Origin: a virus | Length of the DNA stretch: 32,964 nucleotides | IMG/VR virus record: IMGVR_UViG_3300022074_004717 | Coordinates: 1-32,964 of that record | Reading direction: 5' to 3' (one strand) | In this document: piece by piece, positions 224 through 12,518 of the stretch | Layout: every line of letters begins with the position of its first letter | How positions within the stretch are numbered: position 1 is the stretch's first letter | The notes under the pieces: model-generated | The model's input: only the letters and a program-made list of their open reading frames with translations | Databases searched by the model: none | What the model was told of the DNA's origin: nothing | Made by a program: the position numbers and the translations under genes

Positions 224-1300
224 TCAACCGATAGAAGGTGCGGTCAAGGCCACAGGTGTGGACTCAGCAGCCGCAAGATCCAAGGGGAAGTTGTGAGCGT
301 TACGCTCGTGCATGACTTCCATTCCAAGACCTGCTCTGTTGAGAACATCTGCCCAGGTGTTGACGACACGTCCTTGCCCATCGATGATGGATTGGTTGAA
401 GTTGAACCCGTTGAGGTTGAACGCCATGGTGCTGACGCCGAGGGCGGTAAACCAGATACCCACGACTGGCCAGGCAGCAAGGAAGAAGTGCAGTGAACGG
501 GAGTTGTTGAACGATGCATATTGGAAGATAAGACGACCGAAATATCCATGTGCTGCAACAATGTTGTATGTTTCTTCTTCTTGTCCGAACTTATAACCAT
601 AGTTCTGAGACTCGTTCTCGGTGGTTTCACGAACCAGCGAAGAAGTAACCAGAGAACCGTGCATTGCGCTGAACAGCGAACCACCGAACACACCTGCAAC
701 ACCCAACATGTGGAAGGGGTGCATCAGAATGTTGTGCTCTGCTTGGAAGACAAGCATGTAGTTGAACGTGCCAGAGATTCCCAATGGCATTGCGTCAGAG
801 AACGAACCTTGACCGAAGGGATAGACCAGGAAGACTGCGGATGCTGCTGCAACAGGTGCAGAGTAAGCAACACAGATCCAAGGACGCATACCGAGACGGT
901 AAGAAAGTTCCCACTCACGACCCATATATGCGTAGATGCCGATAAGGAAGTGGAAGACTACGAGTTGGAAAGGACCACCATTGTACAGCCACTCATCCAG
1001 AGAAGCTGCTTCCCAGATGGGATAGAAGTGAAGACCAATTGCGTTGGAAGAAGGAACAACTGCACCAGAGATGATGTTGTTACCATAGATCAGCGAACCA
1101 GCGACTGGTTCACGGATACCGTCGATGTCCACAGGGGGAGCAGCGACGAAGGCGACGATGAAGCAGATAGTTGCTGCCAACAGAGTTGGAATCATCAGAA
1201 CGCCGAACCAACCTACATACAGGCGGTTGTTGGTAGAGGTGACCCACTGGCAGAAAGACTCCCATGTGGATGTTTGTTGACGCGAAAGTGTTGTTGTCAT
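224..1300 (-). CDS. psbA: Photosystem II D1 protein
   Basis: A full-length D1 reaction-centre protein of 358 residues, starting [13 protein letters not shown]. The reading frame stays open 50 codons further upstream, but that extension does not look like D1 and covers the leader, so the ATG at 1300 is used. D1 binds P680, pheophytin, QB and the manganese cluster; the helices, the [17 protein letters not shown] region, the [11 protein letters not shown] stretch and the mature end NFPLDLAA followed by a short cleaved tail are all present. The residue equivalent to position 130 is Glu (MGREW), which marks the high-light D1:2-type form. The gene is uninterrupted, so no intron. It has its own promoters at 1450-1483 and its own terminator at 177-201. 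Confidence 0.98.
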
Positions 1301-1349
1301 TTGAATAGGGTAATGTATGAGTACGGGGGGACGCACTAGTTTTATTATT

Positions 1350-1372
1350 CCCACACCACCCTCCAGTGTGGG
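1350..1372 (-). other. Stem-loop in the psbA leader
   Basis: CCCACAC (1350-1356) and GTGTGGG (1366-1372) form a 7-bp stem with a 9-base loop, 50 bases upstream of the psbA start. No T-run follows on either strand, so it is not a standard terminator. It may affect stability or translation of the psbA mRNA (inference). Confidence 0.5.
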
Positions 1373-1449
1373 TATTAGAGACGTATTTTGTTTCCCTAGA
1401 GGTCTCGGTTTAAGGGGAAATGGTGTGTTACGTTTCGTAACGTTCAACA

Positions 1450-1457
1450 TATTTATA
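1450..1457 (-). promoter_or_regulatory. T4-type late promoter for psbA
   Basis: Exact TATAAATA on the minus strand, the late-promoter motif of T4-like phages, about 150 bases upstream of the psbA start. It overlaps the -10 box of the sigma-70-type promoter at 1455-1483. Confidence 0.65.
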
Positions 1458-11572: not shown

Positions 11573-11595
11573 AAAAGGGGAGCATGATGCCCCCC
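11573..11595 (-). terminator. Terminator-like hairpin at the start of the lysozyme-like gene
   Basis: Minus strand GGGG (11592-11595), GCA/TGC inner stem around 11582-11590, CCCC (11577-11580) then TTTT (11573-11576), immediately before the ATG at 11572. It would end transcripts from the hli operon upstream. Transcripts from the promoter at 11597-11625 begin within the hairpin and should escape it. Confidence 0.65.
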
Positions 11596-11596
11596 T

Positions 11597-11625
11597 ATTA
11601 TAAGGTATTCGGTTTTTCCTGTCAA
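11597..11625 (-). promoter_or_regulatory. Perfect consensus sigma-70 promoter for the lysozyme-like gene
   Basis: Minus strand TTGACA (11620-11625), 17-base spacer, TATAAT (11597-11602): an exact match to the vegetative consensus. The expected start site (about 11590) falls inside the terminator hairpin, giving a leader of about 18 bases. Confidence 0.85.
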
Positions 11626-11765
11626 TTATTTGGTGCCGTGGAAGGGATCATCATACCTCCCCCCAAATCGTCATCATCCTCATCATCACTTGCCAATACC
11701 AACATAACAATAAATGGTGTGACTATGAAAATCAGTGTTTGTAACACTGTCCAGTCATAAATCAT
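11622..11765 (-). CDS. Single-pass membrane protein with acidic segment (47 aa)
   Basis: 47 residues: a transmembrane helix (TVLQTLIFIVTPFIVMLVLA) and an acidic run (SDDEDDDDLGGG). The ATG at 11765 makes an ATGA overlap with the preceding micro-gene, which decides the start. Last gene of the hli operon; function unknown. Confidence 0.65.
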   Translation of the reverse strand: MIYDWTVLQTLIFIVTPFIVMLVLASDDEDDDDLGGGMMIPSTAPNN

Positions 11766-11827
11766 GAGTTTTTTGCTGCTGCAGCAATTGGAATTAGCAA
11801 AAGCACTGCTACTGCTATAAATCCCAT
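11762..11827 (-). CDS. Membrane micropeptide (21 aa) in the hli operon
   Basis: 21 residues (MGFIAVAVLLLIPIAAAAKN plus Ser), one hydrophobic helix. Its ATG overlaps the stop of the small hli gene (TGATG) and its stop overlaps the next start (ATGA). The neat coupling on both sides argues that it is translated, though it is very short. Confidence 0.45.
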   Translation of the reverse strand: MGFIAVAVLLLIPIAAAAKNS

Positions 11828-11934
11828 CACCAAATACCTGGAATGAGTTGTCCGGTAATAGCATAAGATCCCATTGCTGCTACTACTCCAAGCATTGCTG
11901 CCCAACCATTAATGCGTTCTGCTCTTTCGTTCAT
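11827..11934 (-). CDS. hli: High-light-inducible protein, minimal 35-residue form
   Basis: 35 residues, essentially only the chlorophyll-binding helix: ERAERINGWAAMLGVVAAMG then ITGQLIPGIW. The ExxNGxxAMxG signature of Hli / one-helix light-harvesting-like proteins is present. These bind chlorophyll and carotenoid in the thylakoid and protect photosystem II under stress; phages carry many. ATGA overlap with the upstream gene. It is too short to be found by usual length cut-offs. Confidence 0.88.
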   Translation of the reverse strand: MNERAERINGWAAMLGVVAAMGSYAITGQLIPGIW

Positions 11935-12167
11935 TGTCCTGTCTCCTGTAAAGTTAGATAAAAGTTTTCGTTCGTTGGTTTTCTACCATCTAATTCGTAG
12001 ATAGTAGAGTCTCCATAAGTCTTATGGTCCTTGTACCCTACCATTCTCCCCTTCGTGTTCTGGAGAGCAGGCATGAATACAATATAGAAAAATACTCCCG
12101 GTGCTCCGATAATAAAAGCACTTGCGATTACATAGTATGTTAGAAGTTCAGCCAGGGAAGTTTCCAT
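11931..12167 (-). CDS. Small membrane protein, weakly PsbM-like
   Basis: 78 residues with an N-terminal membrane helix (YYVIASAFIIGAPGVFFYIV) and a polar tail (GYKDHKTYGDSTIYELDGRK). The helix pattern, with Ala-Ser then a Pro and aromatic residues, recalls photosystem II subunit PsbM of marine cyanobacteria, but the match is weak and the tail longer. Lies between a 28-residue micro-gene and hli, with overlaps on both sides (TAATG, ATGA), so a thylakoid role is plausible (inference). Confidence 0.65.
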   Translation of the reverse strand: METSLAELLTYYVIASAFIIGAPGVFFYIVFMPALQNTKGRMVGYKDHKTYGDSTIYELDGRKPTNENFYLTLQETGQ

Positions 12168-12253
12168 TAGTAAGTTTCCGATAATTGTTCAACAGAGTAA
12201 GCAAGCAAAACAAAGAATGAAATGCTTGTTACGGTAAAAATCAATTCAGACAT
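12167..12253 (-). CDS. Membrane micropeptide (28 aa) in the hli operon
   Basis: 28 residues with one helix (LIFTVTSISFFVLLAYSVEQ). Start overlaps the stop of hli (ATGA), stop overlaps the next start (TAATG). The size is that of small photosystem II or cytochrome b6f subunits, but I cannot match it to one. Confidence 0.55.
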   Translation of the reverse strand: MSELIFTVTSISFFVLLAYSVEQLSETY

Positions 12254-12462
12254 CAGATCATGCCAAAGAAAAGATTACCAGTCAGCGAGTATGAGAACAC
12301 AGCAAAGAAGAAACCAATCATCGCGGTGCGACCATTCAGTTTTTCTGCACGTTCTGCATAAGTCTCATATCCATAACGTTGTGCGTCAGTATCTGAGATA
12401 TACATTTTAGGTTCTTTGGCGAACAAATTTTGGCGTCCACCGTCTTCAGTTGTTACAGTCAC
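12253..12462 (-). CDS. hli: High-light-inducible protein
   Basis: 69 residues starting at a GTG preceded by GGAG at good spacing. A polar N-terminal part is followed by the chlorophyll-binding helix ERAEKLNGRTAMIGFFFAVF and SLTGNLFFGMI, with the ExxNGRxAMxG signature. Protects photosystem II during infection. First gene after a perfect sigma-70 promoter, and head of a five-gene operon of tiny membrane proteins with overlapping ends. Confidence 0.92.
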   Translation of the reverse strand: MTVTTEDGGRQNLFAKEPKMYISDTDAQRYGYETYAERAEKLNGRTAMIGFFFAVFSYSLTGNLFFGMI

Positions 12463-12489: not shown

Positions 12490-12518
12490 ATTATATAGGA
12501 AACATAAAGTTTTGTCAA
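12490..12518 (-). promoter_or_regulatory. Perfect consensus sigma-70 promoter for the hli operon
   Basis: Minus strand TTGACA (12513-12518), 17-base spacer, TATAAT (12490-12495). The -35 box overlaps the stop codon of the upstream gene. It suggests strong expression by unmodified host polymerase, i.e. early in infection. Confidence 0.88.

Follow-up and report, generated by a model that had tools for sequence, protein, structure and literature searches.

What are six small overlapping reading frames, two of them hli genes and four of them unnamed, doing together in a viral genome? Our preferred reading, to which we give a probability of about 55%, is that they form an early-type phage unit for photosynthetic-membrane micro-proteins that keep photosystems running, in which the two Hli proteins, Hli1 and Hli2, make up a pair resembling HliA(B) and HliC. 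The window, by which we mean the whole stretch of DNA that was analysed, is a 32,964-base virus contig (IMG/VR record IMGVR_UViG_3300022074_004717) whose genes include psbA, pstS, a cyanophage OMP gene, transaldolase-like and 6-phosphogluconate-dehydrogenase-like genes, and a PTOX gene (Pfam AOX match, E 2e-11). Since this gene content is accompanied by nucleotide matches that fall only in records of cyanophages and of a few marine viruses, the window is, judged by its sequence, a fragment of a T4-like cyanophage (cyanomyovirus). A cyanobacterial operon was rejected on the same grounds, and the cassette belongs to the phage. Elsewhere in the window, the 5′ end of the 408-aa psbA ORF (224–1450, minus strand) overlaps a PhotoRC-II RNA (Rfam RF01717; 1337–1430, minus strand; E 6e-11), which probably puts the actual start of psbA further downstream, and two wcaG RNA motifs (Rfam RF01761; 27756–27855 and 28098–28192, minus strand) are found, one strong and one at threshold.

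The six ORFs of the cassette run along the minus strand from 12462 to 11622 and encode, in order, proteins of 69 (Hli1), 28, 78, 35 (Hli2), 21 and 47 residues (Table 1). Neighbouring ORFs overlap by 1 or 4 nt, the five junctions reading TGATG, TAATG, ATGA, TGATG and ATGA, and identical stop/start overlaps recur in relatives (74 loci analysed). The promoter 5′ of hli1 is kept in 65 of 65 loci, without mismatch in 46 and with one mismatch in 19; promoter sites with at most one mismatch number 9 in the window against 0.43 expected from shuffles. The overlaps, the promoter and the conservation of the ORFs exceed chance. As such, the sequence-only reading, which had described an overlap-joined operon of hli genes and micro-ORFs under a perfect sigma-70 promoter, was accurate on both counts; it had not identified the DNA as that of a phage. 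Terminator-like hairpins in the region number 9 against 1.9 expected, and one of them lies, together with a second promoter, between the 47-residue gene and a downstream lysozyme-like gene (Phage_lysozyme2 Pfam match); from these consensus matches alone, the cassette therefore looks like a transcription unit of its own. Unmodified host sigma-70 is held to serve the early genes of cyanophages (PMC2984593).

Table 1. Features of the cassette and its flanks in the window
Feature	Position	Strand	Evidence or remark
Cassette promoter	12490..12518	-	Exact TTGACA, 17 nt, TATAAT; sigma-70-type
hli1, 69 aa, GTG start	12253..12462	-	phrog_178, E 1e-30; Psb34/HliA-like N-terminus
28-aa single-helix membrane peptide gene, no family	12167..12253	-	148 phage records; 1-nt overlaps on both sides
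78-aa protein of phrog_961 / T4-GC 987 type	11931..12167	-	phrog_961, E 1e-35
hli2, 35 aa, minimal Hli, ERINGW replacing ExxNxR	11827..11934	-	phrog_178, E 2e-19
21-aa single-helix membrane peptide gene	11762..11827	-	Relatives at 97/115 viral hli2 junctions
47-aa membrane protein, acidic tail ending Gly/Met/Pro	11622..11765	-	phrog_905, E 1e-8; phrog_905 and phrog_17393 related
Second perfect sigma-70-type promoter, ahead of lysozyme-like gene	11597..11625	-	Consensus match
Terminator-like hairpin and T-rich stretch, cassette end	11576..11596	-	Consensus match only

A different arrangement is seen upstream of hli1 in relatives such as L029, L008, L023 and L042, and not in the window, where the −35 TTGACA forms the loop of a GC hairpin. 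These terminator-promoter composites read GGAACCC TTGACA GGGTTCC TTTTTTAC TATAAT, with the T-run after the hairpin serving as the promoter spacer. Of 49 contexts, 16 have stems of at least 5 pairs at the −35 box, whereas shuffling the partners gave 2.9 on average and 9 at most.

The two Hli proteins differ in length and in motif. Hli1, whose gene starts with GTG in the window and with ATG in relatives, carries the ExxNxR motif of a Hlip as EKLNGR, and N-G-R is present in all aligned Hli1 sequences. Its N-terminus matches NCBIfam Psb34 (NF033486, E 3e-7), as it does in 25 of 25 relatives, over positions 1–24 of 53 only and at 30.1 bits against a cut-off of 45. Because Hli1 keeps ExxNxR and falls below the full-length Psb34 cut-off, we regard it as HliA/B-like and not as Psb34. 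In Synechocystis, HliA/B and Psb34 have this N-terminus in common, its presumed binding site is made up of CP47, D1, PsbH and PsbL, and HliA/B pair with HliC as a heterodimer (PMC9458560). Hli2 is without an N-terminal extension and matches phrog_178 over positions 34–68 only. The Arg of ExxNxR is replaced by Trp or Leu in 39 of 44 distinct Hli2 variants, with E and N kept; Hli2 thus departs from the Hlip motif, and its helix still matches phrog_178, so that we call it Hli-like. Each of 17 phage genomes examined has two hli genes, a single long one and a single short one. Since a stable chlorophyll site is held to need two ExxNxR helices (PMC8617258) and Hli2 is mostly without the Arg, it is reasonable to infer that Hli1 and Hli2 pair as a heterodimer, although the Arg-less Hli2 could instead mean weak rather than selective pairing.

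Between hli1 and the 78-residue gene lies the 28-residue frame, for which tblastn returned matches in 148 phage records, with E values as low as 1e-6. Most of the matched sites have no annotated feature or only the 1-nt overlap with hli; S-TIM61 annotates the frame as a hypothetical protein, and Bellamy carries it too. Among 58 distinct occurrences, the 5′ neighbour is hli in 47, and the 3′ neighbour is the 78-residue gene in 39 and petF in 16. The frame has a dN/dS of about 0.12–0.15 and a mean diversity at codon positions 1/2/3 of 0.29/0.12/0.49, a codon-position statistic reached by 0 of 20,000 shuffles, the p value being rough as the sequences are kin by descent. The 21-residue frame was searched for with a DNA pattern covering the end of hli2 and Met-Gly-Phe alone, which returned 117 viral stretches, 115 of them readable. 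At 97 of these 115 hli2 junctions a peptide of 20–24 residues is encoded, nearly always of the form MGF..LIPI..S, and in 96 of the 97 an ATGA-coupled acidic-tail protein follows. With a dN/dS of about 0.40 and a permutation p of 0.0135 at codon positions, again rough for sequences related by descent, selection on the 21-residue peptide is indicated, weaker than on the 28-residue one; in both frames the diversity by codon position is as expected of coding sequence. The sequence-only reading had staked its case on translation and conservation of these two frames, and both frames are conserved.

A rival reading takes the 21- and 28-residue frames for spacers that couple translation and whose products are idle. 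Both are very short and overlapped on either side, the dN/dS of the 21-residue frame is modest, and the slot after hli2 can carry other short helices or no micro-ORF. Against this stand strict length and the conservation of particular residues, with the MGF...LIP pattern in the 21-residue peptide and an invariant C-terminal E-T-Y in the 28-residue one, whose sequence is kept before petF as well as before the 78-residue gene. We therefore consider idle spacers very improbable. At L178, L182 and other junction loci, a helix of 26–29 residues (MGFLAVA...QSGDES type) replaces the 21-residue peptide after hli2, and one hli2 junction locus encodes a 41-aa fusion of the MGF helix with an acidic tail.

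Such short genes had been expected to be easily missed, and this is borne out not only by the 28-residue gene but also by the complete genome of S-CAM22, in which an un-annotated 21-residue frame lies between hli2 and the acidic-tail gene. In SynMITS9220M01, where the order is hli1, 28-residue gene, 78-residue gene, hli2, acidic-tail ORF, one or two short ORFs and psbA, the 28-residue and acidic-tail ORFs are un-annotated. Neither Pfam nor NCBIfam holds a family for the 28-, 21- or 47-residue proteins, and tblastn of the 21- and 47-residue proteins against phages gave no match, possibly through the low-complexity filter. PDB profile searches returned nothing for the 28- and 21-residue peptides and, for the 47-residue protein, nothing beyond short matches to chains of eukaryotic receptors, most of them at tag-like DYKDDDD stretches. 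The statement that these peptides match no photosystem subunit that can be named is confirmed by the Pfam, NCBIfam and PDB profile searches, and the homologue search proposed alongside it found all four unnamed ORFs conserved in phages.

The acidic-tail family, phrog_905, is present in 13 of 17 phage genomes, directly 3′ of the short hli in 11 of the 13 (in one across a 21-residue gene) and within the psbD cluster in S-CAM8 and ACG-2014f. These placements bear on whether the 21- and 47-residue proteins are a holin-like lysis module belonging to the downstream lysozyme-like gene. Their single-helix products, the Phage_lysozyme2 match of the gene that follows in the window, and the lysozyme- or hydrolase-like gene found 3′ of the cassette in about half of relatives would all suit such a module. 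However, a separate promoter precedes the lysozyme-like gene, loci without a following lysozyme still have the acidic-tail family next to the short hli or in the psbD cluster, and the endolysin linkage expected of a holin/lysis module does not hold for the 21- and 47-residue genes across relatives. As the stable partner of the acidic-tail protein is hli2, a lysis role is unlikely, and we give it very little weight. In ACG-2014f, a 40-aa acidic-tail protein (AIX30136.1; L095 4742–4864) that coincides with a phrog_905 match is labelled carboxylesterase, a probable misannotation.

The 78-residue protein matches the phrog_961 profile over positions 1–72 of 73, a full-length member, is T4-GC 987 in S-ShM2, and has homologues in 242 phage records. 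The family, hereafter 961, combines a single helix, kinked at GAP, with a basic tail that hardly varies, ALQNTKGRMVGYKDHKxYGDSxIYE; AlphaFold2 predicts a kinked helix and a disordered tail at a mean pLDDT of 66, too weak for a fold search. Taking the nearest recognised gene within 1.2 kb on either side as the neighbour, photosynthesis genes (hli, petF, psbA/psbD) flank 961 in 157 of 159 IMG/VR viral loci, these loci being the best matches to two queries, so that the proportions are not a census. The flanking pairs are hli/hli in 81, psbA/psbD in 28, petF/hli in 18, hli/petF in 18, petF/psbD in 8 and prx/hli in 2, with 2 loci one-sided and 2 without such neighbours. The order psbA-(petF)-961-psbD is found in S-CAM4, S-CAM8, ACG-2014d, S-ShM2, Syn2 and ACG-2014f. 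This genomic context supports the idea of a kit of small thylakoid subunits.

Two further arrangements were observed around 961. In several phages (L056, 190–348 relative to the match; L074; L084) a soluble-looking family of 51–52 aa, MPNxDALWxDxQKLDDLYxELLWxPDDELQF..., once annotated as AbrB-like, is inserted between 961 and hli2. ACG-2014f (KJ019095.1) carries two copies of 961 (173418 and 176764) and of the acidic-tail gene (175159 and 178505), each pair 3,346 bases apart, so that either the psbA-961-psbD block is duplicated in tandem or the assembly has produced the second copy.

A search of 84,980 cellular genomes with two conserved 961 peptide patterns matched 40 stretches and gave one relative, on a phage-derived contig. 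This lone ‘cellular’ 961 (L085, NZVE01000057.1, a ‘Rhodobacteraceae’ MAG) was rejected because its contig is a cyanophage fragment binned in error, with the hli cassette and further genes resembling those of the window.

The 78-residue protein had been said to recall PsbM, and it could be a phage PsbM that takes the place of the host protein where the PSII monomers meet in the dimer, with a stromal tail in addition. PsbM is the one photosystem protein that the 961 profile returned from the PDB, as two PsbM sequences that share one register along the helix (961 profile 13–33 against PsbM 8–28), and the psbA-961-psbD gene order would suit it. The matches, with E values of 0.9–1.4 over 21 residues, make PsbM a weak lead, and an unrelated viral helix, HCV p7, scored better. 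Pfam gives no PsbM match for the 78-residue protein, which is twice the length of PsbM, nor does a distant homologue of 961 match PsbM. We regard a phage PsbM as quite improbable.

That distant homologue, found by pairwise comparison (42% identity over 53 residues, E 4e-15) in the marine virus AG-345-O18 and 30 IMG/VR contigs, brings in another set of photosynthesis genes. In about half of its contigs it sits with ndhP (PDB 6khi_P, E 2e-8), psaJ (Pfam, 4e-16) and ndhI, which it overlaps by 4 nt in several. In the viral blocks of L292–L306, ndhP, psaJ, the 961-like gene and ndhI are joined by 4-nt overlaps in varying order, the NdhP ORF being 44 aa. In L309–L314, L316–L320 and their kin, no photosynthesis neighbour was detected beside it, and in L314 it lies between genes that by eye resemble T4 gp55 and gp47. 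The existence of this sublineage weakens a pure neighbourhood argument for 961.

The main rival to PSII as the complex of 961 is PSI/NDH-1, in which case the 78-residue protein and its petF neighbours would work for cyclic electron flow through NDH-1/PSI. On that reading NDH-1, or an assembly of PSI with NDH, would have 961 as an accessory subunit, and the Hli pair would merely be co-transcribed. The overlaps with ndhP, psaJ and ndhI point this way, as do the direct petF neighbours in 44 of the same 159 loci and the proposal that phage infection favours cyclic flow (PMC5082946). Nevertheless, the psbA/psbD and hli/hli pairs in that sample weigh against it, and PDB profile searches returned no NDH chain for 961 and no NdhP match for any cassette peptide; the pairwise comparison of the 961-like protein with viral NdhP gave E 0.07, so that it is not assigned to NdhP. 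We find service to cyclic flow unlikely. The placement of 961 at PSII is favoured because it is so often encoded between the genes for D1 and D2.

From anatomy, conservation and genomic linkage we infer the following course of events under the preferred reading of a photosystem-maintaining phage unit. Host RNA polymerase would transcribe the cassette, as its promoter suggests, and the ORF overlaps would couple translation to give similar amounts of the products, which would insert into the photosynthetic membrane during infection. The N-terminus of Hli1 may dock on the CP47 side of PSII assembly or repair intermediates, where Hli1 would pair with the short Hli2, as HliA(B) does with HliC, and excess excitation would be dissipated while D1 is replaced. 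The pair would thereby shield CP47-containing PSII intermediates in a phage that itself encodes psbA. The 78-residue protein would act as a virus-specific accessory subunit, its helix serving as an anchor and its invariant basic tail lying on the stromal face, most likely of PSII, while the 28-residue peptide and the 21-residue peptide with its acidic-tail partner would be further single-helix companions of the same complexes. That the products are photosynthetic-membrane proteins is something we hold with fair confidence; the partner complex of each is less certain. Only tentatively do we propose that 961, the 28-residue peptide and the 21-residue/acidic-tail pair are virus-evolved micro-subunits without a cellular ancestor. 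If so, electron flow would be retuned by virus-made parts, and not by borrowed host genes, that fit into PSII, PSI or NDH-1.

Photosynthesis genes in phages, such as psbA, psbD, petF and hli, are commonly seen as borrowed from the host, and here small membrane proteins accompany them in hundreds of viral genomes. If these proteins bind photosystems, they would be virus-made subunits and would offer a handle on the effect of infection on ocean photosynthesis. The Hli1/Hli2 pair also makes phage use of the CP47 docking site, contested by HliA/B and Psb34, directly testable. Hli, psbA and psbD are already known from cyanophages, and the catalogues list phrog_961 and phrog_905 with no function given; a search of largely open literature found no paper on the ORF between psbA and psbD. 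As far as the literature searched shows, it is new that 961 is tied to photosynthesis gene clusters of three kinds, that the 28- and 21-residue genes form conserved families, that the 21-residue gene is coupled to the acidic-tail gene, and that a long Hli with a Psb34-type N-terminus is paired with a short one.

The cassette shares its viruses and neighbourhoods with cyanophage psbA, psbD, petF and hli03, of which hli03 and psbA are core genes (PMC3037559); unlike those genes, 961 and the genes of the 28-, 21- and 47-residue proteins have no assigned cellular family. The 78-residue protein is a clear member of phrog_961/T4-GC 987, for which the catalogue gives no function, and the 47-residue protein matches phrog_905, a function-less entry as well. 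Viral psaJ/ndhI/ndhP blocks embed the distant 961 homologue by 4-nt overlaps, whereas the hli1-961-hli2 cassette was not seen in them. Compared with cyanobacterial HliA/HliB and Psb34, phage Hli1 has the same N-terminal motif together with an ExxNxR helix, and phage Hli2, like HliC, is short and without an N-terminal extension. In contrast to host Hlips, phage Hli2 mostly has Trp or Leu in the Arg position, and in contrast to the host HliA/B-HliC pair, the phage pair is encoded together with four unnamed micro-proteins.
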